DNA from: Solirubrobacterales bacterium
GTDB taxonomy: Bacteria; Actinomycetota; Thermoleophilia; Solirubrobacterales; Solirubrobacteraceae
Direction: 5' to 3'
DNA length: 19,284 bases
Assembly: GCA_009781575.1 (NCBI GenBank)
Contig: WQXW01000004.1
Location: forward strand, 1 to 19,284
A model generated the notes under the pieces. The model made no database searches. It was given only the letters and a program-made list of their open reading frames with translations, and was not told the DNA's origin. Below, in pieces: positions 3,314-18,300 of the stretch. A program made the position numbers and the translations under genes. How positions within the stretch are numbered: the first letter of the stretch is position 1; each line of letters begins with the position of its first letter.

Positions 3314-3429
3314 GGCCTTGAAGACGTCTGTCGGAGGCGCCGTTGGGGGATTCAAAAAGAGGATTCGTTCCGCGCGGAACCAATCCTTAAAACAAAACAC
3401 GCAACGGACGCTGCTGGGCCGGTGCCGCC
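3314..3429 (+). repeat. 116-bp palindromic element, copy 1
   Basis: This is a full-length copy. Its 26-bp core (3361-3386) has arms GGATTCGTTCCGC and GCGGAACCAATCC with one mismatch. It is flanked by GATTCAAAAAGA on the left and TTAAAACAAAACAC on the right. The outer repeat is CCGTTG on the left and CAACGG on the right. The left flank is more diverged than in copies 2 and 5. It lies between the DUF5678/protease pair and the leader of the 3901 gene. Read on the minus strand it is a hairpin followed by CTCTTTTTG, so it could stop minus-strand transcription entering that pair. Confidence 0.9.
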
Positions 3430-3544
3430 AGAGCGGGCGCCCACGAGGCGCCGCGCTCCGCGAGCCGGCGAGCAGGTGCCACCCCACACGTCCACATCAG
3501 CTCCTCCCCGACCAGTGCGCTGGGCCGCTGAGTCTCAGCCGAGC

Positions 3545-3570
3545 GTCAACTCGACGTTGCTGTTTAGTAT
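3545..3570 (+). promoter_or_regulatory. Promoter-like motif GTCAAC-N11-GTTTAGTAT for the large secreted protein
   Basis: GTCAAC (3545-3550) is followed after 11 bases by GTTTAGTA (3562-3569). The minus strand upstream of the 15007 gene carries GTCAAC, 10 bases, then GTTTAGTA, so an exact pair of motifs is shared by two loci that both encode secreted proteins. TAGTAT at 3565-3570 would serve as the -10 and place the start near 3577. The GTCAAC to TAGTAT distance is shorter than for a standard housekeeping promoter, so an alternative sigma factor or an activator site is possible. Confidence 0.45.
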
Positions 3571-3577
3571 CCTGTTG

Positions 3578-3714
3578 ATGGCGCGCCGGCTTTCGAAGGC
3601 CGCGCCATAGAGATCCCCTCCGGGATCGCCTCAGCGAGCCCGGAGATCCGAGGTGGCCGCTTTCGGCGCGCATATCTCCGGACGCGCATGGGTGCTCGGT
3701 GCCCGCGCGCGTCC
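3578..3714 (+). ncRNA. Candidate structured leader RNA (four consecutive stems) of the 3901 gene
   Basis: Four stems follow one another. ATGGCGCG (3578-3585) pairs with CGCGCCAT (3601-3608). GATCCC (3612-3617) pairs with GGGATC (3622-3627). CCGGAGAT (3640-3647) pairs with ATCTCCGG (3674-3681) and encloses GCCG-CTTT-CGGC (3656-3667). GGACGCGC (3680-3687) pairs with GCGCGTCC (3707-3714), with an inner GGGTGC/GTGCCC stem that includes two wobble pairs. The last two compete for two bases. The first stem starts where the promoter motif predicts transcription to begin, about 320 bases before the start codon at 3901. I match it to no known riboswitch. Chance pairing is more likely in GC-rich DNA, so covariation evidence is needed. 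Confidence 0.4.
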
Positions 3715-3900
3715 TGCCCTGTCGCCTCGCCACAGGACATTCACATCGCCCACGATCACAAGATGTTTACGTCGATCGACCGGCTTCAGGAGAGCATAAG
3801 CATCCCGCAAAGAGATTGCACCTGTTTATATGCCGACAACGCCCAACCAGCACCGTCCGGTGCGCGCCGGCGCTCCAAGCGCGCGTGGACGGCGCGCTCG

Positions 3901-6900
3901 ATGAGTTCGCGCCGGGCCACCTCGCGCCGGGCCGCCGCGGGCGCAGCGCTCGCGCTTAGCGCCGCCGTGGCGGTTGTCCTTGCGCTTGCGCTCGCCTCGC
4001 CTGGGCGCTCGCCGGCCGACGCGTCCGCCACGGGCGGCGTGCCCAGCGCGCAGCCCGTGATCGGGCTGCCCGTAAGCGCGCCCACGTTGATCGGCTCCTC
4101 GCCCCAGGGGTCCCCCGGCGAGAGCTGGGGCTTTGCGCAGGGGCGCTCCGGCATGGTGCTCATCCGCTACCGGGCCGGCGGTGTGTGGCAGCTGCAGCCC
4201 CCGCCGGTCGACGCCAAAGGCGCGGCGCTCGCCTCCTTCAAGCCCGCCCCGGGGCCGCTCGCGGGACGTGTCACCCCGGCCGGCGGGGTTGCGATCGCCG
4301 GCGAAGACCAGGCCCACCAGCAACAGCTGCTCGTGCGCGACCCCGACGGCTCGCCCGCCGACCCCGGCGGCCTGCTGCGCGAGGCGCCCACGGTCGCCAC
4401 CACACCGCAGAGCACCGCGCCGCCGAGCACCGCACCGCAGACGGCCCCACCGAAGCCGGCGGGCGAACCGGCCGCGGAAACCCCCAACGCGGTGCTCCAC
4501 CCGGGGGAGACGCTGTTCCCCGCCAACGGCACCGAAGGCACGCTGATCGCGCCCACTGACGGCGAAGGCGATCGCACGGTGGTGTTCGTGGTGCCCCACG
4601 AAACCGGGCCCGGCGTGCAGAACGGGGTGCTGTTCTTCGACGGCCACGGCTGGACGCGTGAGCCGATCTGCACCGCCACCGAAGGCTCCGCCGGCGGCAC
4701 CGAAGGCTGCACGCAGCCCACGGCCGGCTTCAAGGTGCTGGCGATCGACGCCTCCTCGCCCCAGAACGCCTGGCTTTTGGCCAAGGGCGAAGGCCACACA
4801 GAAGGCGTTGTGCTGTTCGCGCGCCAGGCCCTCGGCGCCGATTGGCGCTGGGTCAAGCAGACGCTCGGCTCGGGGCTCGGCGCGCAGTTCGCGCAGTCCA
4901 AGCTCACCTTCGAAGTCCCCTCGAGCGCGACCCACGAAAGCGTCCCTGTCGGGGTGGCCGCGTTCGAACACGGGCAGCCGCTCACTGTCACCAGCGCCGG
5001 CGTGTGGGTGGACGGGCAGCTGACGTTCCCGAGCCCCCAGCGCGCGGTGGACTTCACGCTCTACTACGACCTCTCCGCCCGGCGGGTGAGCGCGAGCTGG
5101 TGCGACGCGCCGCCCGTGGCCGCGTCGCTGTGCTCCGAGCCGCTCTCCTCGAGCCTGCCGCCCAGCGCGTACCGCAGCTTCGCCTGGCCCACCGGCGGGC
5201 CCTACGGCACGCGTGTGATCACCGGACTGTCCAACGGCGTCACGCTCAGCCTGCAGGGGAATCAGTTCACCAGGGTGCTCGGCAACGGCGGCGAAAGCGG
5301 CACACAGAACGGCGCCGCCTTCTCCTCGCCACAGGAAGGATGGCTGGCCGACCCGATCGGGTATCAGCTCACGCACGTCACCACCGCGCCCGAACCCGAT
5401 CGCCTGCGCGAATGGCCGGTGCCCTTCCGCCGCCCGCTCACTGCGGTCGCCACCCAGCCGGGGATGGCCCCCGGCGCGCTGGGCGCACAGGCGATCGCGG
5501 TCGGCGATTCCGGCCAGGTCGCGCACTACTTCCCGGGGGGTCGCGGATGGGTGCCCGAACCGCTGCTCGACTCCACCGGCAAAGCCACCCAGCCCGCGCT
5601 GCGCGGGGTCGCGTGGCCCGAACCCGAACGCGCCTACGCGGTGGGCACGCACGGCGCGATGTGGGTGTGGCTGCAGTCCACCGGGCTGTGGGAGCCCGAC
5701 CCCGCGCGCCTGCCGAGCGCGCAGATCGACAACTTCACGGGGATCGCCTTCAACCCCTCAAACCCGAGTCAGGGCTACGCGATCGGCCAGCAGGGGGTGC
5801 TGCTCGGGTACGGCAAGAGTTGGACCCAGGAAGCGCTGCCCCCCGGGCTGTCGGGCGCCGAAGGCGCCAACTTCACCTCGATCGCGTTCGCCGGCGGCGA
5901 AGCGCTGGTCACCTACCAGGTCCCCCCCAACTACAAGGAAGGCAACAACAGCTACATCGGCGGTGTGCTGCGCAACGCCGGCAACGGATGGGAAGTCGAC
6001 ACCGAAGCCGACTCGGTCCTCCTGGGCAGGTACGAGATTCCGGTGCGCGTCGCCGGCCTGCCCGACGGCGGCGCCGCGTTTGCCACCGCCTTCGGCGAAG
6101 TGTTCGAGCGCCAGAGCGCGGGCGCGCCGTGGCTGCCCGCGCCGGCCGGGCAGGTGAGCGGCTCCCCGGCCGCGCTCGCGCCGTTCCGCGAAGGCGGCGT
6201 GCTGCGCACCGTGGTCTCGATCGACACCGTCAACGGTGGCGGGCTCTCACAGGATCTCAGCGGCGACTACGGGCTCTCGCAGCCGCCCGCCGAAGGCGAG
6301 GCGCCGGTGCTCACCGCCCCCTACACGCTGCCCGGCAGCGGGTATCTGCTGCGCGAAACCCCGGGCGGGTGGCGCGATGAGGAGCACAACGACTATCCCA
6401 CACCGGAACGCAGCGGCGCGCACCCGCCGGGCGGCAGCGGTTTCGACTTTCCCGTGATGCCCGACGCGGTGCTCGCGCTCGCGCTGCCGCCCGACGGTGG
6501 CGAAGGCTGGGCCGTCGGCGGCCAGACGGGCGCGATCAACCTCGGCGTGCCGGGCGGGGGCGGTGAACAGTCGACCCTCCCGATCCAGACCGCCGGTGTG
6601 ATGCGCTACCCCTCCAGCGCCACCCCGCCGTCGGGCTTCGCGGTGACACCGGAAAGGACCGCTTCTGCCAACGCCACCTTCGCGATCGGCGGCAACGCGC
6701 AGTGCGCGACCGCCTGCGCCGACCTCGCCCAGGACCAGCTCGGCCCCGACGAATGGCTGGCCAACGCGCTGGAACGCGCCGCGCAGACCCCGGGTGTGCG
6801 GGCGTTTCTGTACACCGGCCCCCATCTGGCCGCGGGGCTCGGCGACAACGGGCCGGCGAGCTTCCTCGAACCGCCCGCCTTTCAGCGCGAGGAGGAACGG

Positions 6901-8589
6901 TACGCGCGCCTGATTGCAAGCGCCGCCGGCACCCTGCCGGCCTACGCCGCGCCGAGCGAATCCGACCTCGACCCGACCGGCAGGCTCACGAGCTTCACCT
7001 CCGCCTTCGGTGCGCTCGACGCGCCGCAGGGCAGCGTGCCGGCGCCGCCGGGGATAACGCCGCTCACGCAGCCGGGCAGCGCGGGCGCGTACTTCTCCTT
7101 CGACTCGGCCGGCGCCGGCGCCGGCGGTGCGGTGCGCGTGGTGGTGCTCGACTACTCAAAGCCCGAGCTCGGCACAGAACAGCAGTGCTGGCTCGCGCAG
7201 CAGCTCGCACAGGCAAAGCACGAGCACGCGCCCGCGCTGGTGCTCGGCTACCGCAGCGTCCTGAGCCAGGCGGGCACCGTGGCCGTGGACGCGCCCCAGG
7301 TGGCCGCGATCCTCGGCGGTGGCTCCGGCCCGTCGGGGTGTCCGTTGGGCGGGCTCTCGCCGGGTGTGGCCTCGGCCTACTTCTTCGATGCCCCACAGGA
7401 GAACACCGCGCTCAGCATCGTGGCCGGCGGCATCTCGATCCCCGCGTTCGGCAGCGGCACGCTCGGCTACACCGGCCTGCCGTTCGGCAAGCTCGACACC
7501 GAGTTCCTGGGCGCCAGCGGCTTTCTGCTCGCCGAAGTCGATCTCGCCACGCGCAACGCCACCACCAACCGCGCGCGGGTGACCGTCAAGCTCGAGCCCG
7601 ACATCGCGGCGCTCGCGATCAACGCCACCGGCGGCACGCTGCTGCGCCGCAGCCGCCCCGCCCTCTTCGAAGCGCTCGCCCGGCGCCGTCCGGCGGGGAT
7701 GGAATGCGGCAACGAGGCGGTGTGCAAGCCCGATCCCTACGTGCCGATCCCCGACCCCTGCCACGGCCCGGCGTGCGCGACCGCGATCTTCCCCGAATAC
7801 CGCTTCACCTCCTCAAACCCCGACATCGGCGATTTCGTGGAGCCCGACCCGGCCAACCCCGAAGCCAACACCGTGCTGCAGGGGGCAAACGGGAAGCCGG
7901 TGGCGGATGAACACTCGGGGCTCTTCTGTGCCTACAACGCCGGCACCACGACCGTGACCGTGCAGAGCGGCGGCCTCTCCGCGTCGGTGCCCGTCACCGT
8001 GACGGCCGGCAGCGTCGAGCAGCCCTGTGGCACGGTGCCGCTGCGCAACCCGCCCGCGCCCGTGCAGGAGGCCGCGCTGAGCGTGCCGCCCCCGACGCCC
8101 GCGCCGGCGCCCGCGCCCGCGCCCGGGCCGACGCTGGCCCCGCCGCCGCCCGCGCCGCCCGCGCCCGCTCCACCGCCGGCCCCGGCTCCCGCGCCGGCAC
8201 CCGTGGCCGTCCTGCCCGTTGTCCACCACGTTCATCCTCTGCAGCCGGTCCTGCCGCCGGTGCCGGTGCAGCCCGCGCAGCTGGCGCCGATCATCGCCTT
8301 CGCGCCGCCACTCGCGCCGAGCGCGGCCCGCCCGACCCCGCCCTCGGGCACCGTGCAGGTGCCGGCGCAGAGTCCGGTCTCACAGCCCGTGGCCGCCGCC
8401 GAACGCGAGGAGGAGGAGAGCGCGGCGGTCCAGCACGTCCACCACATGGCGGCATATCGCCACGGCGAAGGAGCCCCGCTGCCGCCGTGGCTGCCGGCGC
8501 TCGTGTTGCTCGCCGCGCTGGCGGGTGTCTCGCTGCGCCGCAGCGCGCGCACGCCGCAGCGGGCTTACGCCCGTTCACCGTCTCGCTGA
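3901..8589 (+). CDS. Giant secreted, membrane-anchored propeller/degenerate phosphoesterase protein
   Basis: The product has 1562 residues, counted from ATG 3901, chosen because it directly begins a signal peptide (basic MSSRRATSRR, then a hydrophobic run to about residue 33). Residues about 50-900 carry propeller-like repeats with recurring blade motifs such as NAWLLAKG, RAYAVGTHG, GYAIGQQG and GWAVGGQTG. Residues about 920-1215 resemble a calcineurin-like phosphoesterase (FAIGGNAQC, VVVLDYSKPEL, GSGTLGYTG), but the metal-binding Asp/His/Asn motifs are absent, so it is probably not catalytic. An Ig-like domain (about 1299-1374), a Pro/Ala-rich stalk (about 1381-1517) and a membrane helix (PPWLPALVLLAALAGVSL, about 1528-1546) with an Arg-rich tail follow. 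It is probably displayed on the cell surface. It converges on the 10467 gene. The function is unknown. Confidence 0.85.
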   Translation: MSSRRATSRRAAAGAALALSAAVAVVLALALASPGRSPADASATGGVPSAQPVIGLPVSAPTLIGSSPQGSPGESWGFAQGRSGMVLIRYRAGGVWQLQPPPVDAKGAALASFKPAPGPLAGRVTPAGGVAIAGEDQAHQQQLLVRDPDGSPADPGGLLREAPTVATTPQSTAPPSTAPQTAPPKPAGEPAAETPNAVLHPGETLFPANGTEGTLIAPTDGEGDRTVVFVVPHETGPGVQNGVLFFDGHGWTREPICTATEGSAGGTEGCTQPTAGFKVLAIDASSPQNAWLLAKGEGHTEGVVLFARQALGADWRWVKQTLGSGLGAQFAQSKLTFEVPSSATHESVPVGVAAFEHGQPLTVTSAGVWVDGQLTFPSPQRAVDFTLYYDLSARRVSASWCDAPPVAASLCSEPLSSSLPPSAYRSFAWPTGGPYGTRVITGLSNGVTLSLQGNQFTRVLGNGGESGTQNGAAFSSPQEGWLADPIGYQLTHVTTAPEPDRLREWPVPFRRPLTAVATQPGMAPGALGAQAIAVGDSGQVAHYFPGGRGWVPEPLLDSTGKATQPALRGVAWPEPERAYAVGTHGAMWVWLQSTGLWEPDPARLPSAQIDNFTGIAFNPSNPSQGYAIGQQGVLLGYGKSWTQEALPPGLSGAEGANFTSIAFAGGEALVTYQVPPNYKEGNNSYIGGVLRNAGNGWEVDTEADSVLLGRYEIPVRVAGLPDGGAAFATAFGEVFERQSAGAPWLPAPAGQVSGSPAALAPFREGGVLRTVVSIDTVNGGGLSQDLSGDYGLSQPPAEGEAPVLTAPYTLPGSGYLLRETPGGWRDEEHNDYPTPERSGAHPPGGSGFDFPVMPDAVLALALPPDGGEGWAVGGQTGAINLGVPGGGGEQSTLPIQTAGVMRYPSSATPPSGFAVTPERTASANATFAIGGNAQCATACADLAQDQLGPDEWLANALERAAQTPGVRAFLYTGPHLAAGLGDNGPASFLEPPAFQREEERYARLIASAAGTLPAYAAPSESDLDPTGRLTSFTSAFGALDAPQGSVPAPPGITPLTQPGSAGAYFSFDSAGAGAGGAVRVVVLDYSKPELGTEQQCWLAQQLAQAKHEHAPALVLGYRSVLSQAGTVAVDAPQVAAILGGGSGPSGCPLGGLSPGVASAYFFDAPQENTALSIVAGGISIPAFGSGTLGYTGLPFGKLDTEFLGASGFLLAEVDLATRNATTNRARVTVKLEPDIAALAINATGGTLLRRSRPALFEALARRRPAGMECGNEAVCKPDPYVPIPDPCHGPACATAIFPEYRFTSSNPDIGDFVEPDPANPEANTVLQGANGKPVADEHSGLFCAYNAGTTTVTVQSGGLSASVPVTVTAGSVEQPCGTVPLRNPPAPVQEAALSVPPPTPAPAPAPAPGPTLAPPPPAPPAPAPPPAPAPAPAPVAVLPVVHHVHPLQPVLPPVPVQPAQLAPIIAFAPPLAPSAARPTPPSGTVQVPAQSPVSQPVAAAEREEEESAAVQHVHHMAAYRHGEGAPLPPWLPALVLLAALAGVSLRRSARTPQRAYARSPSR

Positions 8590-8632
8590 GCCGGGTTCCG
8601 AGGGGCCCGTCAAGGCTTGCGTCGGCGCGCGC

Positions 8633-8748
8633 GGCCTCGAACACGCCTGTCTGAGGCGCCGTTGGGGGATTCAAAAAGAGGATTCGTTCCGCGCGGAACC
8701 AATCCCCAAAACAAAACACGCAACGGCCGCTGCTCGACCGGCACCGCC
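8633..8748 (+). repeat. 116-bp palindromic element, copy 2
   Basis: This full-length copy lies 44 bases after the stop of the 3901 gene. The core is at 8680-8705 (GGATTCGTTCCGC / GCGGAACCAATCC, one mismatch, as in copy 1). Outer GCCGTTG (8658-8664) pairs with CAACGGC (8721-8727). A left stem GCCTC/GAGGC (8634-8638/8653-8657) and a right stem GCCG/CGGC (8725-8728/8739-8742) are also possible, giving a multi-hairpin layout. It forms an inverted pair with copy 3 around the 8818-10467 gene. Confidence 0.92.
8669..8705 (-). terminator. Possible intrinsic terminator for the 10467-8818 gene, formed by repeat copy 2
   Basis: On the minus strand the palindromic core of copy 2 is followed by CTCTTTTTGAATC, a hairpin plus T-run arrangement 113 bases past the stop of the 8818 gene. 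In the plus direction the hairpin is followed by A-rich sequence, so it would not terminate the 3901 transcript by this mechanism. Confidence 0.4.
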
Positions 8749-8817
8749 GGAGGGAGCCGCGCCCAAAGCAGAACCCCACGCTCGCGCCTGGGCCGCTGCG
8801 CGCCGCGGTCGGCGCGA

Positions 8818-10467
8818 TCAGGGCACCGGGCCGAGCGGGCGGACGCGCAGTTCCAGGCGCGTCGGCCACGCGCGGCGGTGCACACGCAGGGTGAGCGCGT
8901 GGCGGCCGCCGGCGAGCACGTAGCCACGGCTCTGGGCCACGCGGCGATGGTGGCGCAGCGCCAACAGGCGCACGCGCGAGCGGGTGGCGAGCGTGAATGT
9001 CACCCGCAGCCTGGTGCGGCCGACGAGCTGCTCCTTCACGTGCGAGTAGAGCGCCACGCGCGCGGGCGCCGGCGGCGTGGGCGGGGGCGGCGTCAGCAGC
9101 GGGGGGAGCACCTGCGGGATCGCGCCGGAGTCGTCTTCGGGGAAGGTTTCCGGCGCGATGAACGGCAGGCTGGCGTCGGGCGGCCGGTAGGTGATGACCT
9201 TCTGGAAGTTGGGGTCCTGGTCTTCGGGGTAGTTGGGGCCGAGGTGAAAGAGCCATCCCTGGACCGTGACGACCCAGCAGTCGCCCTGCGCGGGGCAGGT
9301 GATCGCTCTGGCCGAGCCCTTGTCGCCGAGCGCTTCTCCCGCTTCGGGCAGCACGGTGAGGGGGTCTATGCTCGCTTCGTCCGTTTCCCCGACCGGGGCG
9401 TGGATGCGCGTGACGCGCGTGCGCGCGCCCGGACCGCCGTAGTTGCCTTCCGGCCCGCCGTTGAGGTCCACCGAGATCCACGCGTCGTCGGTTCCCGGCT
9501 CCGCCGCCACGCCGCCGATGTACGCTTCGGAGAGCGCCCCCGAAGGATCGGCGAGCAGCAGTTGCTGGAACTGGCCGTGACCGTTCAACAACAGCACCGT
9601 GCCCGGGGCGGCTGCCCAGAGGTACTTGCCGGCGGCGCTGAACTGGAATGACGTTTCCCCGTTGCCGTTGAAGTTGAATGTGAAGGGCTGGCCGGGCGGG
9701 CCTTCCAGGAGCAGCGGCTGGAAGGTCCTGCTCGAGCCCTCGATCAGCTTGTGAATGAAGTCGGAGGCTTCTGGCGATCCTTCCGGCTGGACTCCCTCGT
9801 AGAAGTGGCCGCCGTAGCTGATCAGCGAGCGCACGTTCTGCGGGGGGTCTTCGAGCCCCGGTTCGGGCACTTCGGGCGAGGGCAGCGGGGTGAGCGTGCT
9901 GCCGTTCCAGTGCAGGTGAAACGCGCCGCTGTTCAGCGCGCCTTCCAGCCGTTCGCCCGCAAACCAGCAGTCGCTGGGCCCCGAGCACGCCGCGGCGAAC
10001 ATGCGCCCGTAGGAGGTTGTGAGCCCCAGCGGCTCGGCGTATGAGGCCACGACCTTGCCGTTCTGGAAGTGGCACAGCGAGCGGTCGCGGCCTTCTGATT
10101 CCGACACTCCGCCCGGGCCCGAGCGCTGGCCGACCTGCATATCGGAGATCGTCCAGAAGTCGTCCGGGCCGGCCCACGCGATGCGCCCGTCGGTGCCGCC
10201 GCACACGGTGGACAGGCGCCGCCAGCTGACGCCGTTGTAGTAGAAGAGCCCCGGCGCCACCGCTTCGGTGCCCTGGGTGATCAGCACCCCCCGGTTGGGC
10301 GCCCAGAAGCTGATCTGGCCGATGTGCCCGAGCGGCACCGGCACTTCGATGCTGCGCTCGCCTTCCGGCGCCGGTTCGGGCAGCGGCTGGGCGGAGTGCC
10401 ACCCCCCCGCGGCCGACGCGCTGCTCGCGAGGAGTGCCGCGATCGCCAGCGCGAGCAGGACGCGCAT
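8818..10467 (-). CDS. Secreted beta-propeller-like protein with Arg-rich C-terminal beta domain
   Basis: The product has 549 residues. The ATG at 10467 starts a clear signal peptide (MRVLLALAIAALLASSASAA, cleavage near residue 20); longer reading frames would begin inside the 116-bp element and are rejected. The body has blade-like motifs with cysteine pairs (CSGPSDCWFAGE, CPAQGDCWVV) plus NRGVLITQGT and DDFWTISD, as in actinobacterial secreted propellers. A proline-rich hinge (PPLLTPPPPTPPAPA) precedes a C-terminal beta-sandwich of a type common in Solirubrobacterales (LRVTFTLATRSRVRLLALRH, ending in HALTLRVHRRAWPTRLELRV). No catalytic motif is seen and the function is unknown. It may be the last gene of the 15007-13031-10467 series. 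It is bracketed by inverted copies of the 116-bp element. Confidence 0.82.
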   Translation of the reverse strand: MRVLLALAIAALLASSASAAGGWHSAQPLPEPAPEGERSIEVPVPLGHIGQISFWAPNRGVLITQGTEAVAPGLFYYNGVSWRRLSTVCGGTDGRIAWAGPDDFWTISDMQVGQRSGPGGVSESEGRDRSLCHFQNGKVVASYAEPLGLTTSYGRMFAAACSGPSDCWFAGERLEGALNSGAFHLHWNGSTLTPLPSPEVPEPGLEDPPQNVRSLISYGGHFYEGVQPEGSPEASDFIHKLIEGSSRTFQPLLLEGPPGQPFTFNFNGNGETSFQFSAAGKYLWAAAPGTVLLLNGHGQFQQLLLADPSGALSEAYIGGVAAEPGTDDAWISVDLNGGPEGNYGGPGARTRVTRIHAPVGETDEASIDPLTVLPEAGEALGDKGSARAITCPAQGDCWVVTVQGWLFHLGPNYPEDQDPNFQKVITYRPPDASLPFIAPETFPEDDSGAIPQVLPPLLTPPPPTPPAPARVALYSHVKEQLVGRTRLRVTFTLATRSRVRLLALRHHRRVAQSRGYVLAGGRHALTLRVHRRAWPTRLELRVRPLGPVP

Positions 10468-10544
10468 CAGCCCGCCGGCCAACGGCCCTCGGGCCGAGAG
10501 CCCGCCGACCGGTGGGAAGGTACCGCCAGATTTCCGCAAAATGC

Positions 10545-10660
10545 GAGAGTGGTGGTCGAGCAGCGTCCGTTTCGTGTTTTGTTTTAAGGATTGGTTCCGC
10601 GTGGAATGAATCCTCTTTTTGAATCCCCCAACGGAGCCTCGGACAGGTGTGTTCGAGCCC
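10545..10660 (-). repeat. 116-bp palindromic element, copy 3 (inverted)
   Basis: This is full length on the minus strand, between the 10758 gene and the start of the 10467 gene. Its core is at 10588-10613. Read on the plus strand the arms are GGATTGGTTCCGC and GTGGAATGAATCC, which pair with one mismatch and two G-T wobbles. The pairing is thus better kept in RNA read from the plus strand than in RNA read from the minus strand. Flanking tracts GTTTTGTTTTAA and CTCTTTTTGAATC are intact. The outer repeat is partly lost (GTTTCG instead of GTTGCG). It is the most diverged of the full-length copies together with copy 1. Confidence 0.88.
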
Positions 10661-10757
10661 GCGCCAGATTCCCGCCCAACGCGCATCCTCATGGCGCCCA
10701 GGCGGACCCGGGCCGGCACGGGGACTTCGAGATGCGGTCTCGACACCGACTGTCACC

Positions 10758-13031
10758 TCAGCTGCGCCGCGGCGCGGGCCGGCTGCGCCCGCGTCCGTGC
10801 GCTCGCCTGTGCGCCGCCACGCGCTTGGGCGCTGTGGTTTTCGGGGTTTGCGCGCGCAGCTCGATCATCACGCTGTGCGTCAGGGGCGGGCCGCCGGCGC
10901 CGGTGAAGCGCACGCGCACGGTCGCATATATGCCCGCCGGCGAGCGCAGCAGCGACTGGTAGCCGGTGCTGACGTGTACCGGCAGTTCGACGAGGCCCGC
11001 GATCGCGGTCGACGTTTCGGCGCTCGCCACGGTGCGTTCCCGCACGACTGCCGGCTTGCCGGTGCGCTTGCGCGCGGTCGCGCGCCGGCGGATGGGGGGG
11101 TGAGGGCGGCGCGAGGCCCGCCCGGCGACTGTGCCGCGAGGGCGCTGTGACGCCCGCCCGGCGGCGGCGGCGGCGGCGCGCGTGCGCCGGGACGCCCGCC
11201 CGGCGGCGGAGGCGCTGCGGCTGCGCTGCGGGACCGCGGCCATCGCGCTGGCCGACAATCTTCCCGCCCCGGGGACCTCGACGTCGAGCGTGACGCTGCC
11301 GTCGGGCTCGAGCACCGGCACGACGCTCAGCCCCCACAGCCCCGCGGCCGGTTCCAGGGTGGGCGGCTGCGGGCCGATCTGCACAGGGCCGGGCTGATCG
11401 GTGTTGGGGAGCTCCGTCACGGTGAACACGTCGCTGGCGCCGTTGGAGTCGCCGCCCACCAGGTTTGAGGCGGTGTCGGCGAACGCCAGCGTGAGGCCGT
11501 CGGCGGTGAACGTGGGCGCCAGCGCACCGTTGGTCGTCGGCACGGACGTACCCCCGGCTTCGAACGCCGGCCCGTCGCCGGGCCCATGGGTGACTCGCAC
11601 GAGCGACTCGTTGGCGAGGTCGATCTCGTACAGTTCCACCACGCCGATGTGCGCGGTGGGTGTTTCGGTGTAGTAGGGCGGCGCGAGCGGGAACTGCTGG
11701 CGCTGTGTGGTGAACGCCACGCGGCTGCCGTCGGGCGAGATCGCAAGGTCGAAGATGTTCCCCGCGCCCGGCACATATCCGGACTGGAAGCCGGGGTTGG
11801 TGAGGATTTGGCCGGCCTGTGGCACCTCGCGCGTGAGTTGGCGCAGGGCCTGCACGCGGTCGAGACCTTCGTGCATGTTGACGATGAAGAGATTCGAGGC
11901 GCTGTCGGGGTCGCCGATCAGCGCGGCGGTCCAGCCGTCGAAGCTCAGCTGCGGGACGCCGTCGTAGTTGTGGATCCCGAGCCAGCCGTAGTTGGATTCC
12001 TGGCCCCCCCTCACGCTCTGGTCGATCGTCGGGAAGGGGCCCTGGCAGGCCGGCTCTTCGAGCGTGCCTCCCGCGGGGCAGCCCGGCGCGAGTGGGTCGC
12101 CGCCGCCGACCATGCGGCGCGTGGGCGCGGTGGGGCCGTCGGCGATCCGGCGCCAGAGCGGCTCATCGTACGGTTCGAATTCGTCCTCGCGTTCGATCAC
12201 CGCGCGTTCGCCGGCGAGCGTGGGCACCTGCGCGGGGATGTGCCCCCCGAGCCAGGCGACCGTGGAGCCGTCGCCGCTGAGCGCGGCGGCGGGCAGCAGC
12301 GGGCCGCTGCCCGAGGTGAGCGTGCGCGTCACCGCACCGCCCGGGACCGGTTCGGGCGTGCCGGCGAGTGACTTCATCGTCTGGCTCACCAGCACGGTGC
12401 GCTTGGGGTCGAGGTAGCGCACCACCACCTGGTGGGCGGGCGTTTCGAGGTGGGCGGGGTCGTGGCTCTCCAGATCGGATGCGTTGTCGGTGACAAACGC
12501 GACCTCGCGCCCGTCGGCGCTGAGCGCGACGCGGGCGGTGGCGATCGCGCCGCCGGCGAGGCCTTCTTCGCTGCCGTCCAGCGCGGAGGCGAGTTCGTAG
12601 GGGCAGCGCGCACCGGCCTGCTCGGCGGCGCTCGTGCACGCTTCGCCGGTGGGCGTGGGCACGTCCATGTCGCGCACGTACACGTTGTTGCCCGGCTGCG
12701 CGGTGGGTGTGAGCTGTGCGCTCGCCGTGAAGCTCACATACCGCCCGTCGGCGGAGATCGACGGCGCGGAGGCGTCGGAGCCGCGCACCACCAGCGCGAG
12801 CGCGCCGGTGTGCAGGTCCTTGCGAAAGATGCCCGACACGCCCTGCGCACCGCCGAGCGTTCCGGTGAAGACGAGGTAGCGACCGTCGGCGGAGATCGCG
12901 GGTTCGGTGGCGACTTCAAACTGTTCCACCTGATTGGTCGACTGCAGCTGGATGGGGGTGAAATCTGCGGCGGCGGACGCCGGCAGCAGAAGCGCCGCGA
13001 GGGCGCAGATGGGCAGCGCGCGAGAGCTCAT
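10758..13031 (-). CDS. Secreted seven-bladed PD40/TolB-like propeller protein
   Basis: The product has 757 residues. It has a signal peptide at residues 1-22 (MSSRALPICALAALLLPASAAA). Seven PD40-type blade motifs are visible in order: AISADGRYLVFTG, SISADGRYVSFTA, ALSADGREVAFVT, ALSGDGSTVAWLG, QLSFDGWTAALIG, AISPDGSRVAFTT and TFTADGLTLAFAD. That is the number expected for one closed seven-bladed propeller (about residues 40-515). The C-terminus is a beta domain beginning SVTLDVEVPGAGRLSASA and resuming near VRERTVASAETSTAIAGL, interrupted by an Arg/Ala-rich repeat loop and ending in a basic tail. The start overlaps the upstream stop by ATGA (13031-13028), so it is translationally coupled to the 15007 gene. 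Such propellers are usually binding scaffolds; the ligand is unknown. Confidence 0.85.
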   Translation of the reverse strand: MSSRALPICALAALLLPASAAADFTPIQLQSTNQVEQFEVATEPAISADGRYLVFTGTLGGAQGVSGIFRKDLHTGALALVVRGSDASAPSISADGRYVSFTASAQLTPTAQPGNNVYVRDMDVPTPTGEACTSAAEQAGARCPYELASALDGSEEGLAGGAIATARVALSADGREVAFVTDNASDLESHDPAHLETPAHQVVVRYLDPKRTVLVSQTMKSLAGTPEPVPGGAVTRTLTSGSGPLLPAAALSGDGSTVAWLGGHIPAQVPTLAGERAVIEREDEFEPYDEPLWRRIADGPTAPTRRMVGGGDPLAPGCPAGGTLEEPACQGPFPTIDQSVRGGQESNYGWLGIHNYDGVPQLSFDGWTAALIGDPDSASNLFIVNMHEGLDRVQALRQLTREVPQAGQILTNPGFQSGYVPGAGNIFDLAISPDGSRVAFTTQRQQFPLAPPYYTETPTAHIGVVELYEIDLANESLVRVTHGPGDGPAFEAGGTSVPTTNGALAPTFTADGLTLAFADTASNLVGGDSNGASDVFTVTELPNTDQPGPVQIGPQPPTLEPAAGLWGLSVVPVLEPDGSVTLDVEVPGAGRLSASAMAAVPQRSRSASAAGRASRRTRAAAAAAGRASQRPRGTVAGRASRRPHPPIRRRATARKRTGKPAVVRERTVASAETSTAIAGLVELPVHVSTGYQSLLRSPAGIYATVRVRFTGAGGPPLTHSVMIELRAQTPKTTAPKRVAAHRRAHGRGRSRPAPRRS
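11112..11205 (-). repeat. Short in-frame repeats encoding AGRAS units in the propeller protein
   Basis: A 15-base unit ending in CCCGCCCGGCG occurs at 11112-11126, 11149-11163 and 11191-11205. In the minus-strand frame it encodes AGRASRR, AGRASQR and AGRASRR, separated by Ala/Arg/Pro-rich linkers including a GCG-type run near 11160-11177. The repeats sit in a loop of the C-terminal beta domain, and length variation between strains would be expected. Confidence 0.7.
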
Positions 13032-15007
13032 CGCACGCTCACGCGCAGATGCGCGGTGGTGGCGTTGCCGACGTTGTCGCGCATCGCAACCGTGATCACG
13101 TACAGCCCGGGGCGACGGTATGTGTGCTTCGCGCTCCTGCGCCCGCGCGCGTGTGCGCCGTCGCCGAAGGCGACCCGCGTGGCGGAGGCGCGCACGCCGG
13201 ACTGCGCGTCGCTCACGCGCACCGTCACCGTGCGGCCGCGGCGGCGCACCCTCGCCACGGGAGGTTGGCTGTCGACCATCAGCTTGGCGGGCGCGCTGAG
13301 CGTCTGCTGGCCGGCGGCGTCGTTGGCGAGCACCTGCACGTTGCGCACGCCGCTGCCCAGCAGCCGCGGGTCGGGCACGGCGCTGAGCCCGGCGAGCCGC
13401 CGCGCGGCCACGCGACCGTCGATCAGCAGCGCGTAGGTGACCCCGCCGGTGGCGTCTTCGGCGCTGGTCCAGGAGACGCGCGCGGCGGCGGGGCGCACCC
13501 AGCGGTTGGGCGCTTCCACGGTGAGAGACGGTGGGGGCGCGGAGACTCCGTCGCCCACGATCTCGGGCGCGCCGGAGGGGCCCTGGCGAAAGGCGAGCAG
13601 CGACTCGCCGCTTTCGGAGCCGGCGGCCACGAGTCCCGACACCGTGCCGTCGATGCGCCCCGCGATCAGCCCCGTCTGCGCCTCGCCGCTGGGATAGTCC
13701 TCGCGCACCGCCACCCCGGGAAGCGGGCCCGCGCTGGCGGGCCAGGCGCTCACCGCGCCGCCTTCGGGCGCGAGCACCGTGGGCACCGGCGCGCCGGCGA
13801 CGCTGGGCGTGGGCCCAAGCGCGGTCTCGGGCGTGGCGGTGGCGCTTTCACTGCCGCGCCACACCTCGGCCTGCCCCGCGGTGGTGAGCGCGACGCGGAA
13901 GTTGCCCTGATCGTCGACCGAGACGCTGGGCGGGCCCACTTCACGCGCGCCGGGGGCGAACGGCACGGGGCCCGAGAACTGAGACGCGCCGGGCGCGGTG
14001 GAGACGGGCAGCGTGTTGGCGAACAGGCGCGCGCGCGTGGGCGGCGCGCCCGGTTCGGGGGCGATGTGACTCACCACCGTGGCGCCGCCGAGTTCGGAGA
14101 CCGAGAGCGCGAACGCATCGGCGTCGGCGCCGAGCGGATCGCCGCCGAGGCTCACCGGGCTGGCCTGCAGGGCGAGCCCGAGCGAAGAGTGAAACACGCG
14201 GCGCGCCCAGATGCGCGCGGTGCCGGTGGTTTCGGATTCCTGCCACGCCACCACGGCCTGCCCCCGGCGCCCGACCCCCGCCTGGGGCGCGTTGGCTTCG
14301 GAGGGCGCGCGCGTTGAGAGCTGGGGTTCGCGGTCGACCCGCTGCGGCGAGCCCCACAGCTGGCCGTTGTAGCGGGCCACGCGAATGTCGGCCAGCACAT
14401 CGCCGGGCCGCAGCACCGGCGCGGTGTTTTCACCCAGCTGGGAGTAGTCGGAGAAGTTGTCGATCACCGCGCGGTAGGCGACGAGCCCTTCGCCGTTTGA
14501 GGCCAGTGCCAGCGAGGGGCTGGCCCCCTGCCCGTTGCCGACGTTGGCGTCGACGATTTCGGCCGGCGCGAAGCTTTCGGCGCCCGGCCCGAGCGTGCTC
14601 CCATAGAGCGCGTCCTGCCCGGCGGCGACCTGGGTCACCCACACGACCACCAGCCAGCCGTTGTCGGCGGCGGCGACACGCGGGTAGGAGGCGGCGTAGG
14701 GGTTGTCGGAGTCGACCCGAGTGGGCGCCAGCCAGTGGCCCTGCGCGTAGCGCGCGGCGAACACGTGCGGCACCCCGCCGACCTCCTTCAGATACACGAG
14801 CCCGCCGGTGCCGTCGGCCGACACCGCCACCCCTCCGAGTTCGCCGATCGTGGCGCTCGGGCCGTCGATCGTCTGCGGCTGCAGTATCAGCGCCCGAGCA
14901 GTGGGCGCGCGCGCGAGCGAGCCCGCGAGGAGCAGAGAACAGGCGAGGACGAGCGCGACAAACGCCGCGGCGCCGGCGGGGCGCGTGGTGGGGGTGAGGC
15001 GCGGCAA
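13028..15007 (-). CDS. Secreted repeat protein with C-terminal Ig-like and PKD-like domains
   Basis: The product has 659 residues, from TTG at 15007 (GGAG lies just upstream, with short spacing). No ATG in frame precedes the signal peptide (GAAAFVALVLACSLLLAGSLA). Residues about 45-480 repeat patterns such as GVAVSADGTGGLVYL, SLALASNGEGLVAY, VGRRGQAVVAWQE and VSVDDQGNFRVAL, suggesting propeller blades. The C-terminus has an Ig-like domain (about 485-580, SLTVEAPNRWVRPAAARVSW) and a PKD-like domain (about 585-658: VAFGDGAHARGRRSAKHTY, PGLYVITVAMRDNVGN). It is the first gene of the minus-strand series and overlaps the next by ATGA. It shares a promoter-like motif with the 3901 gene. It is probably extracellular; the function is unknown. 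Confidence 0.82.
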   Translation of the reverse strand: MPRLTPTTRPAGAAAFVALVLACSLLLAGSLARAPTARALILQPQTIDGPSATIGELGGVAVSADGTGGLVYLKEVGGVPHVFAARYAQGHWLAPTRVDSDNPYAASYPRVAAADNGWLVVVWVTQVAAGQDALYGSTLGPGAESFAPAEIVDANVGNGQGASPSLALASNGEGLVAYRAVIDNFSDYSQLGENTAPVLRPGDVLADIRVARYNGQLWGSPQRVDREPQLSTRAPSEANAPQAGVGRRGQAVVAWQESETTGTARIWARRVFHSSLGLALQASPVSLGGDPLGADADAFALSVSELGGATVVSHIAPEPGAPPTRARLFANTLPVSTAPGASQFSGPVPFAPGAREVGPPSVSVDDQGNFRVALTTAGQAEVWRGSESATATPETALGPTPSVAGAPVPTVLAPEGGAVSAWPASAGPLPGVAVREDYPSGEAQTGLIAGRIDGTVSGLVAAGSESGESLLAFRQGPSGAPEIVGDGVSAPPPSLTVEAPNRWVRPAAARVSWTSAEDATGGVTYALLIDGRVAARRLAGLSAVPDPRLLGSGVRNVQVLANDAAGQQTLSAPAKLMVDSQPPVARVRRRGRTVTVRVSDAQSGVRASATRVAFGDGAHARGRRSAKHTYRRPGLYVITVAMRDNVGNATTAHLRVSVR

Positions 15008-15056
15008 GGGCTCCGCCGCATGCTGAGGCGTTGGGGCGCTGTTTTCAAGACCTGTT

Positions 15057-15080
15057 TACTAAACGCTTACAAGTGTTGAC
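15057..15080 (-). promoter_or_regulatory. Promoter-like motif GTCAAC-N10-GTTTAGTA for the 15007 series
   Basis: On the minus strand, GTCAAC (15080-15075) is followed after 10 bases by GTTTAGTA (15064-15057). This is nearly the spacing seen at 3545-3569. TAGTAA would be the -10, placing the start about 45 bases before the TTG at 15007. The match between two distant loci encoding secreted proteins is the main support. Confidence 0.45.
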
Positions 15081-15115
15081 CACGACGCCCGCTGCGACCC
15101 GGTCAGCGCCGCCAC

Positions 15116-15151
15116 TCACGTGACTGTCAATTGTGTTGATGTTGTTATCAT
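15116..15151 (+). promoter_or_regulatory. Divergent regulatory region and possible promoter of the 15162 gene
   Basis: TCACGTGA (15116-15123) is a perfect 8-bp palindrome. It is followed by GTCAAT (15126-15131), 12 bases, and GTTATCAT (15144-15151), a weaker form of the motif at 3545 and 15080. TATCAT as a -10 would start transcription near 15158, making the ATG at 15162 almost leaderless. The region also lies upstream of the divergent 15007 gene, so a protein bound here could influence both. Confidence 0.4.
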
Positions 15152-15161
15152 TTGAGCGCAC

Positions 15162-15641
15162 ATGGGCAAGACAGCCGAGAGGTCGGCCATACTGCGCGGC
15201 AGAGAGATGCAGGTCCACCGGATCAGCGACCAACGCGACGACGTCGATGGCAACGGCGATGGGGCGCCGAGGCTCGAGGAGATCGAGCAGGCGGCGGAGA
15301 GGCGCCTGCTCGAGCTGCAGCCGATGGTGGAGGAGGCCGAACGGTTGCGCACGGTGCTGGACGTGATCGCGGGCAAGCTGCGCGCAAACGGTGCCGGAGC
15401 GGAGCGGGGGGACGGCGGTCTGGTCGCGCTCGGCCCGCCGCGCGCGGCGACGGGCTCGAACAAGCGCGCGATCCTCGAGCTGGTGGCCGAGCGGCCCGGG
15501 ATCACGGCGAGCGAAATAGCCGAGGAGACCGGGGTCAAGCGCACGGTGGTGGCATCGACGATCAGCCGGCTGAAGCAGCGCGGTGAGCTCGGCGAGCACG
15601 CGCAGGGCGGCCTGTGCGTCACCGAGGCCGCCGGGCGCTGA
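15162..15641 (+). CDS. Small winged-helix DNA-binding protein with N-terminal coiled coil
   Basis: The product has 159 residues. Residues about 35-75 are a charged helix likely to form a coiled coil (LEEIEQAAERRLLELQPMVE, then EAERLRTVLDVIAG). Residues about 97-155 are a winged helix-turn-helix of MarR/IclR-like type (NKRAILELVAERPGITASEI, then VKRTVVASTISRLKQRGELG). This coiled-coil plus wHTH layout is common in Thermoleophilia. It is divergent from the 15007-13031 secreted-protein genes, which makes it a candidate regulator of them; that is inference. The start is uncertain: ATG 15162 suits a leaderless transcript, while ATG 15207 is preceded by GGCAGAGAG. The conserved part is unaffected. 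Confidence 0.7.
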   Translation: MGKTAERSAILRGREMQVHRISDQRDDVDGNGDGAPRLEEIEQAAERRLLELQPMVEEAERLRTVLDVIAGKLRANGAGAERGDGGLVALGPPRAATGSNKRAILELVAERPGITASEIAEETGVKRTVVASTISRLKQRGELGEHAQGGLCVTEAAGR

Positions 15642-15762
15642 CCTCAACGCGTCGCGCCAGGCGCCCTGCGCAACGAACCCTGGACGACGTGGGGCGCCGG
15701 CCTCGACGACGTGCTTGTAGATGGGGTGAGGCGCTCCTGGAGGGATAAGGATTCCGCTCGCT

Positions 15763-15878
15763 GAAACGGTTTTCACCTATCGCAGGCACTGTTGGTGAAT
15801 TCAAAAGTGGATTGGTTCCGCGCGGAACCAATCCTCAAAACAAAACACTAAACGGCCGCTGCTCGGCCGGGCTTCGCC
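15763..15878 (+). repeat. Palindromic element, copy 4 (degenerate left end)
   Basis: The core at 15809-15834 is a perfect 26-bp palindrome (arm GGATTGGTTCCGC). The right side is conserved (TCAAAACAAAACAC, then AACGGCCGCTGCTCGGCCGG), with a perfect right stem GGCCG-CTGCT-CGGCC. The left side is degenerate: GTTGGTGAATTCAAAAGT replaces GTTGGGGGATTCAAAAAGA, and sequence before it shows little match. The boundary at 15763 is estimated by alignment with copy 5. Confidence 0.85.
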
Positions 15879-15943
15879 GTTGCGGTCGAGGAGTTGTTCG
15901 CCTAACTGGAGTCGGTCCGCGCGGCCGACTTCTCCAAAGCCCC

Positions 15944-15962
15944 CCTCCCGCGCCGCGGGAGG
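15944..15962. terminator. Strong GC hairpin, possible terminator without T-run
   Basis: CCTCCCGCG and CGCGGGAGG form a 9-bp perfect inverted repeat around one base (a tight loop in practice), about 300 bases after the stop of the 15162 gene. A second hairpin (AGTCGG/CCGACT, 15910-15930) precedes it. No T-run follows on either strand, so termination is uncertain, although hairpins lacking a T-run have been proposed as terminators in actinobacteria. Confidence 0.3.
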
Positions 15963-16011
15963 CCCGCACGGGCGCAATGAGCATGCGCACTTTGCGGCAG
16001 GTCTGGCGCGC

Positions 16012-16127
16012 GGCCTCGAACACGCCTGTCTGAGGAGCCGTTGGGGGATTCAAAAAAAGGATTGGTTCCGCGCGGAACCAATCCAAAAAACAAAACACGC
16101 AACGGCCGCTGCTCGACCGGCACCGCC
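16012..16127 (+). repeat. 116-bp palindromic element, copy 5 (best-preserved core)
   Basis: This is full length, with a perfect 26-bp core at 16059-16084 (arm GGATTGGTTCCGC). Flanks match copy 2 almost throughout, from GGCCTCGAACACGCCTGTCT on the left to CGGCCGCTGCTCGACCGGCA on the right. Outer GCCGTTG/CAACGGC is intact. It lies 134 bases after copy 4 in the same orientation and ends 46 bases before the dyad of the TetR gene. Confidence 0.92.
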
Positions 16128-16173
16128 GCTGGAGCGGGCGCCGGGGCGTTGGCGCATTTTCGGGAGATCCACC

Positions 16174-17828: not shown

Positions 17829-18219
17829 TGACGCGTTGGTGGCGTCGGGGTTGGTGGAGCTCGCGCTGGGCGCCCTCACAGGGTGGCCGTACGCGCTGGC
17901 GGTGGACGATCCACAGGCGGCGGCCCGCGTGGGAGTGCGCTCGCCGGCACGGCTGCGTCAATGGCACCTCGACCTGATCGCGCTCGGCGCGCTGTCGGTG
18001 CTGATCGGCAGCGCGGTGCCGCAGCTGCCACGGTGGGTGGCGCTCCCGCTCGGGGTCGGCGCGTGGACGAACGCCAACGCGTTCGGCGTGCTCGTGGTGC
18101 GACCCGAGTGGAAGGGCCACACCGCCTATCGGGCGGGCGTGGGGGCGTCGTTTGCGACGGTCAGCTTCGGCTGTGTGGGGCTGGCGGCAGTTGGAGTGCG
18201 ACGGCTGCTGCAGCGATAG
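17806..18219 (+). CDS. Small integral membrane protein, four predicted helices
   Basis: The product has 137 residues. GTG 17806 is chosen over GTG 17800 because AAAGGAG (17794-17800) then has a 5-base spacing. Four hydrophobic segments are visible: VASGLVELALGALTGWPYAL, LIALGALSVLIGSAVP, WVALPLGVGAWTNANAFGVL and GVGASFATVSFGCVGLAAVG. RQWHLDLIAL precedes the second helix. The layout (short four-helix protein with a His before helix 2 and an Asn-rich segment in helix 3) recalls hydroxylaminobenzene mutase/styrene-oxide-isomerase-like proteins, but I cannot confirm this. It overlaps the hydrolase by 23 bases, so it belongs to the TetR operon. Confidence 0.75.
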   Translation: MNSSHNNNDALVASGLVELALGALTGWPYALAVDDPQAAARVGVRSPARLRQWHLDLIALGALSVLIGSAVPQLPRWVALPLGVGAWTNANAFGVLVVRPEWKGHTAYRAGVGASFATVSFGCVGLAAVGVRRLLQR

Positions 18220-18300
18220 CTGGCCCGCACACAGGCGCCCATCCATGGCTCCCCCCGGGTTCGTATGCTCGCGCGCGCAGGGTTACGCTACCATGACACC

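Follow-up and report, generated by a model that had tools for sequence, protein, structure and literature searches.

The repeat and its copies in the window

We analyzed a stretch of 19,284 nucleotides (positions 1–19,284 of contig WQXW01000004.1, assembly GCA_009781575.1; hereafter, the window) from a Solirubrobacterales bacterium of the family Solirubrobacteraceae. It carries five copies of a dispersed repeat that had been noticed in an earlier reading of the letters alone (hereafter, the sequence-only reading), and all five are present as described. Copy 1 lies on the plus strand at 3314–3429, with a 71-bp unit at 3338–3408 and a palindrome with one C·C mismatch at 3361–3386. Copy 2, also on the plus strand, is located at 8633–8748 (unit 8657–8727, palindrome 8680–8705) in a gap between convergent genes. 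Copy 3 is inverted and lies at 10545–10660 on the minus strand (unit 10566–10636, palindrome 10588–10613), flanked by two minus-strand genes. Copies 4 and 5 are on the plus strand at 15763–15878 (unit 15786–15856, palindrome 15809–15834) and 16012–16127 (unit 16036–16106, palindrome 16059–16084), respectively; the left part of copy 4 is degenerate and adjoins a piece of another repeat. In a repeat search of the window, the four plus-strand copies share a 123-nt match with 87, 100, 66, and 96% identity to the reference, and copy 3 forms inverted 116-nt pairs with copies 2 and 5, with 90 and 87% identity, respectively. In the MAFFT alignment of all five copies, the mean column identity is 79%, and the left side of copy 4 again appears degenerate.

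The near-constant part of the repeat is the 71-bp unit, comprised of CCGTTG, an A or T tract, the 26-bp palindrome, an A tract, and CAACGG. In letters, it reads CCGTTGGGGGATT, the A/T tract, GGATT-nn-TTCCGCGCGGAA-nn-AATCC, two free bases, AAAACAAAA, and a more variable stretch with AACGG. The 116 bp originally delineated consist of this unit, the left arm (GGCCTCGAACACACCTGTCGGAGG), and the start of the right arm (GCTGCTCGACCGGCACCGCC). The palindrome had been described as common to the copies; the site is indeed found in all five, but only copies 4 and 5 have it in perfect form. The C·C mismatch (GGATTCG...CCAATCC) is present in copies 1 and 2, and copy 3 has further changes.

Copy number and gene context

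The draft genome that contains the window has 2,254,892 bases in 401 contigs and is 73% complete. The core with at most three mismatches has 375 matches in this draft, where symmetric copies may match on both strands, and the reversed control pattern has none. The self-complementary palindrome GGATTNNTTCCGCGCGGAANNAATCC with at most two mismatches occurs at 334 sites, which corresponds to approximately one site per 6.7 kb; scaled in proportion to completeness, the number for the full genome would be ∼460. For detailed analysis, we sampled 61 contigs (C1–C61, the first three to 20 kb only) with the total length of 737,186 bases, which hold 113 distinct copies with full flanks. The C·C mismatch is the majority state of the palindrome, observed in 81 of these 113 copies. 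A profile search of the sample produced 122 non-overlapping matches, eight of them new, and since these eight are six copies at contig ends and two weak scraps, there is hardly any tail of decayed copies.

The observation that the window copies are intergenic is general: 112 of the 113 copies are outside genes predicted by codon-based gene calling, while gaps constitute 15% of the sequence. The sole genic copy sits in a called open reading frame (ORF) that seems to fuse two genes across their gap, presumably, by our reading of the translation, a DnaC-like gene running into purA. The other observation on gene context, a position downstream of a co-oriented gene, applies to four of the five window copies; in general, the upstream neighbor has the orientation of the element in 54 of 107 copies with both neighbors, so the pattern in the window is a local coincidence. 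Among the same 107 copies, both neighbors share the orientation of the element in 28 cases and both oppose it in 35, while 26 copies lie between convergent and 18 between divergent genes. Hence, the orientation relative to genes is random. By occupied gaps, the copies are enriched in convergent gaps (25 of 76, compared to 18 of 91 divergent and 60 of 440 tandem ones).

Copies were found in 56 of the 61 sampled contigs, leaving five empty, compared to 10 expected by chance. All four pairs of copies less than 400 bp apart have the same orientation; with these pairs included, 33 adjacent copies have the same orientation and 26 the opposite one. The copies are not spaced more regularly than they would be if placed in gaps at random (standard deviation 2861 vs. 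2767 ± 260). Apart from the four close pairs, neither regular spacing nor a consistent orientation of neighboring copies was seen, and both look random.

Distribution among relatives

The sequence-only reading had proposed a search of the host genome and other Thermoleophilia with a covariance model. The search, made with DNA patterns instead, yielded the many additional copies in the host described above and no other host. We found no copies in 23 congeners or in 145 other genomes of the family (the congeners included), and the palindrome pattern was also absent from 395 other genomes of the phylum, eight of them from the same family. As to the closeness of these relatives, the best listed match of pnp has 80–83% identity over ∼2 kb in 18 of the 23 congeners, and in a scan of the Pnp protein, the closest among the best 80 loci is a metagenome-assembled genome from Solirubrobacteraceae with 81% identity. 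A de novo k-mer search of 799 kb from six congeners revealed no comparable repeat (best z at most ∼11, compared to 209 in the own genome). Diverged homologs in the congeners were considered and rejected, as all 23 had only weak matches (best E-value 5.9e-5); among the matches listed, all are at most 52 bp, none spans the palindrome, and most fall in the GC-rich right arm.

Phage and plasmid records produced only short matches (E-value ∼0.3), and a viral contig collection had no exact match. The Rfam covariance-model search of the window gave one sub-threshold match at 18167–18238, outside the copies. No literature on such repeats in Solirubrobacter, Thermoleophilia, or Solirubrobacteraceae was found. 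The repeat is specific to one species among the relatives searched, and it has several hundred copies there.

Conservation of sequence rather than pairing

Covariation was tested on 108 aligned copies, which form 104 distinct rows of the 71-bp unit. The two proposed stems show no covariation: 86.5% of cells are paired, compared to 86.7% in shuffles, and changes on both sides were seen in 16 cells and 3 pairs, compared to 17.4 and 4.4 in shuffles. Of the 104 rows, 79 lack the inner pair 30/45, and the remaining inner pairs are nearly invariant and hence uninformative about pairing. The CCGTTG/CAACGG frame of the unit is often broken, as pairs 3/72, 4/71, and 9/66 are lost in 46, 26, and 49 rows, respectively; longer outer inverted repeats, as judged by eye, are seen in few copies only. 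The folding of copy 2 is ordinary, with z-scores of −1.35 as DNA and −0.96 as RNA of the other strand. Further, the left tract of the unit is A-rich in 89 of 113 copies, T-rich in 23, and neither in one. The A-rich and T-rich tracts differ as RNA and are equivalent only as duplex A-tract DNA. Since covariation is absent and A tracts are swapped for T tracts, pairing is not kept, and what is conserved is the sequence. On these grounds, an RNA element or a stem-loop maintained by pairing was rejected. The sequence-only reading had named two outcomes that would count against it, five isolated copies without structural covariation or a match to a named family; covariation is indeed absent, but the copies are far more than five, and no named family was matched.

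Conservation is concentrated in the palindrome. In the 148-position consensus, positions 60–64, 67–78, and 81–85 are 96–100% constant, while positions 65, 66, and 80 are 83–88% constant. All 21 fixed sites are intact in 91 of 113 copies. Such a pattern of fixed and free bases would be expected for a duplex site to which a putative dimeric protein binds.

Variation among copies

The pairwise identity of the core over the 113 copies is 83% on average and 97% at most. Thus, of the two possibilities considered initially, that the sequence itself matters or that the spread was recent, the former is right, whereas a simple recent burst is not seen, as no pair exceeds 97% identity. The 26-mers form classes of 52, 41, 15, 3, and 1 copies at distances 0 to 4 from the master sequence, with one more copy unrelated. 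Longer stretches lack such a master-plus-mutant spectrum, 104 of the 108 rows being distinct. The linkage between variable sites is weak, apart from immediate neighbors and the tract block, and falls to the permuted level beyond ∼30 bp; all four combinations were seen in 513 of 528 site pairs. Sharing a contig does not make copies more similar to one another. The variants may be reshuffled among copies, or the permitted bases may be at equilibrium.

Composite structure and empty sites

Many copies are flanked by a further sequence of the GCATTTTGCGGGAATCTGGCG type, which we call module C. It was found at 34 of 113 copies, on the left in 25, on the right in 15, and on both sides in six, with no matches of the reversed control, and 40 of 42 matches are within 400 bp of a copy. 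In one copy, the two C modules form an exact 23-bp direct repeat. In the window, module C is seen on the minus strand at 10661–10687, left of copy 3 in the element orientation, and, as a direct repeat, at 10524–10546, right of it. On the plus strand, it lies at 15985–16009, left of copy 5, with a remnant, identified by eye, at 16152–16170, right of it. Still farther left of the copies are TTGATC..TTGATC pairs, 15 of 16 of which are within 250 bp of a copy; the search for the TTGATC module returned 37 places. Among the 34 copies with module C, the number of mismatches per 21 sites is 2.2 in module C, which is a minimum, as the module was selected at no more than six mismatches, 2.7 in the left arm, and 0.29 in the fixed sites of the palindrome.

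Module C and the unit also occur in tandem, at loci L061, L062, L094, and in the window; the four tandem pairs are 72.7–91.9% alike. Conversely, at positions 1399–1558 of locus L070 of the same genome, the outer modules and a single module C are present with no palindromic unit between them; this is either a unit-less version or a recombination product. Thus, the unit is the constant center of a frayed composite, in which module C with the unit acts in a repeat-like manner, with zero, one, or two turns.

To look for empty sites, we used 62 pairs of neighboring genes that are also adjacent in a congener; nine of these gaps hold copies. The eight single-copy gaps have a median length of 334 bp, compared to 70 bp in congeners, and the double-copy gap is 363 bp, compared to −28 bp. 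The 26 copy-free gaps longer than 30 bp have medians of 71 and 54 bp, respectively.

A second repeat family, family F, was observed at 6446–6842 of locus L080. This element is 397 bp long and has terminal inverted repeats of ∼24 bp (GGGTGCGGCTCTCCTGGAGGGACG); it looks like a classical miniature inverted-repeat transposable element (MITE). It splits a copy of the 71-bp unit within the right A tract of the latter and has AAAAACAAA on either side, a 9-bp duplication identified by eye. Family F-like ends are also found in L079, L092, L096, L097, L104, L105, L109, and the window, where an end-like piece with 4 mismatches of 24 lies beside copy 4 at 15724–15747 on the plus strand; similar ends adjoin A-rich tracts elsewhere. 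The nested element supports the view that the gaps of this genome are built from several mobile repeat families.

Origin and maintenance of the repeat

The repeat is probably a lineage-specific population of non-autonomous mobile repeats, similar to REPINs or MITEs, spread as a composite and held by a putatively protein-recognized palindrome. A process resembling transposition would have acted on the composite and dispersed the copies, and selection would have removed insertions that hit genes. The 26-bp palindrome would be the recognition site of a putative DNA-binding protein, either a mobilizing enzyme or a host factor, and the adjacent A/T tracts would bend the duplex. Recognition by the protein would preserve the palindrome, whereas the modules around it fray and receive insertions of other repeats. 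Two of the options considered in the sequence-only reading, a dispersed MITE- or REP-like repeat and a putative protein-binding site, agree with these data.

Several observations weigh against this reading. In the draft, which lacks ∼27% of the genome, we found no match to Y1_Tnp (PF01797), RVT_1, or Transposase_mut; the search covered no other transposase families. Target-site duplications are not clearly above the shuffled level outside the C-flanked copies: for 111 of the 113 copies, direct repeats of at least 11 bases between the flanks were seen in 11, with ∼7 expected from shuffled pairs, and the longest ones (12–23 bases) are mostly module C. The empty-site comparison relies on gap lengths, which agree in five of eight single-copy gaps and in the double-copy gap, as three single-copy gaps are not clearly longer than their congener counterparts (−236, +28, and +40 bp). 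Near-identical pairs are absent, and even the tandem pairs are diverged, so that recent copying is invisible. Finally, rare alleles give a mixed answer on selection for the palindrome after insertion. Alleles seen up to three times constitute 0.95% at the fixed palindrome sites, 2.55% in the left arm, and 2.46% in the right arm, while singletons are rare throughout (0.29, 0.91, and 0.28%, respectively).

A site used by the host chromosome-wide for nucleoid organization, supercoiling, or insulation between genes, whatever its origin, would account for the density of sites, the low number of empty contigs, and the near absence of degraded palindromes. The near-independence of variable sites, as in a binding-site matrix, and the enrichment in convergent gaps point in the same direction. 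On the other hand, the repeat is missing from all 23 congeners searched, which means that it does not serve a general need, its spacing and the orientation of adjacent copies look random, and the flanking composite modules imply copying. We consider this explanation doubtful. A transcribed RNA element, that is, an intrinsic terminator or a stabilizer in the 3′ untranslated region (UTR), is far less likely still. On the minus strand, A-form copies do have a hairpin followed by a T tract, and a scan of the window found 16 terminator-like sites, compared to 7.4 ± 2.7 in shuffles, among which are the palindromes of copies 4 and 5, together with small stems at copies 1, 2, 4, and 5; the preference for convergent gaps would also be expected. 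However, in the 23 T-form copies, neither strand has a T tract following the hairpin, orientations in tandem gaps are balanced (28 vs. 35, p = 0.45), and 61 of 107 copies have a gene reading toward them from the side that a terminator would require (p = 0.18). We rejected the terminator on this lack of orientation bias. The ordinary folding of copy 2 and the absent covariation also argue against an RNA element, and the 3′ UTR element suggested by the sequence-only reading does not fit the random gene orientation and the lack of covariation.

A REPIN family proper, in which paired repetitive extragenic palindromic (REP) sequences are mobilized by RAYT, a Y1 tyrosine transposase, is quite improbable, although the resemblance is considerable. 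Like REPINs and REPs of Pseudomonas and Escherichia coli, as they are described in PMC3116915 and PMC8049555, the repeat is palindromic and intergenic, has hundreds of short copies and tandem clusters with flanks, and forms mutant classes around a master sequence. In contrast to them, it has a longer unit with A/T tracts, and GTAG, CGTC, and their complements are missing from the 148-position consensus, with no tag common to most copies. Among the 113 copies, GTAG occurs in two, CGTC in 19, scattered, and GACG in 51, of which 39 have it directly at the right edge of the unit, as CGTC of the complementary strand. No PF01797 match was found in the 73%-complete draft, and among the 23 congeners only one has such a match. 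Compensatory changes are not beyond chance here, whereas they are called common in PMC3116915. Abundant palindromes without a dedicated transposase are also known among CGTC-tagged REPs, small stem-loops with 8–9-bp stems next to the tag, as described in PMC3733652; here, the tag is present in a minority of copies, and no 8–9-bp stem follows the edge CGTC, as judged by eye. Still, the repeat may have a distant tie to REPs of the CGTC type, given the tag at the unit edge.

Other known families share some features with the repeat. BIME-1 of E. coli consists of two inverted REPs around an IHF site, according to PMC2817692, and is similarly a mosaic in which a palindromic unit is combined with other modules and for which a DNA-binding protein is proposed, but here there is one palindrome with tracts on both sides and no REP, and the binding protein is putative. 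Bacterial MITEs such as ERIC/RU-1, Correia/NEMIS, and RUP are ∼100–200 bp long, non-coding, and dispersed, as outlined in PMC2229807, and in these respects the repeat is similar; it differs in having a conserved center rather than conserved ends, and most copies lack a clear terminal inverted repeat and target duplication. Hence, the repeat resembles REPIN and MITE families but is not assigned to either: a consistent REP tag, compensatory changes beyond chance, and clear target duplications are lacking, and the search of the 73%-complete draft revealed no Y1 transposase.

An artifact of assembly or binning of this metagenome-assembled genome might be suspected from its 401 contigs and 73% completeness, but the chance of that is negligible, as the copies are spread over 56 of the 61 contigs sampled, every copy has flanks of its own, and almost all aligned rows differ. 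In addition, the copies adjoin genes that, by our own reading, we take to be core genes, such as pnp.

Other features of the window and genome

The window also contains two copies, 90% identical, of a transposase fragment at 369–578 and 2021–2230; the region 301–570 matches HTH_Tnp_1 (PF01527). Between them, at 716–1900, a gene for a MerR-like/DUF433 protein is followed by a 168-aa ORF with no Pfam match, a pair that may be toxin–antitoxin-like. Elsewhere in the genome, locus L081 (contig C22) encodes a tail tape measure protein (PHROGs) and has no copy of the repeat; this is possibly prophage or phage DNA.

Implications

It is conceivable, although we regard it as unlikely, that the repeat represents a stable intragenomic sequence population of a second kind in bacteria, separate from the REP/RAYT system. 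A palindrome resembling a recognition site, with bending tracts, would have arisen and spread to several hundred gene gaps in one species, its variable sites reassorting freely, by ectopic conversion or by site-by-site equilibrium, and would have become a chromosome-wide protein-binding array.

The abundance of the repeat is like that of known families or above it, and it has no consistent REP tag, no detected RAYT, and one host species so far. Such a family would offer an independent case for studying the origin, spread, and possible host use of such sequences. The repeat could also mark the contigs of this organism for binning. If the unit is a protein site, it could lead to a chromosome-wide DNA-binding protein or to the mobilizing enzyme.

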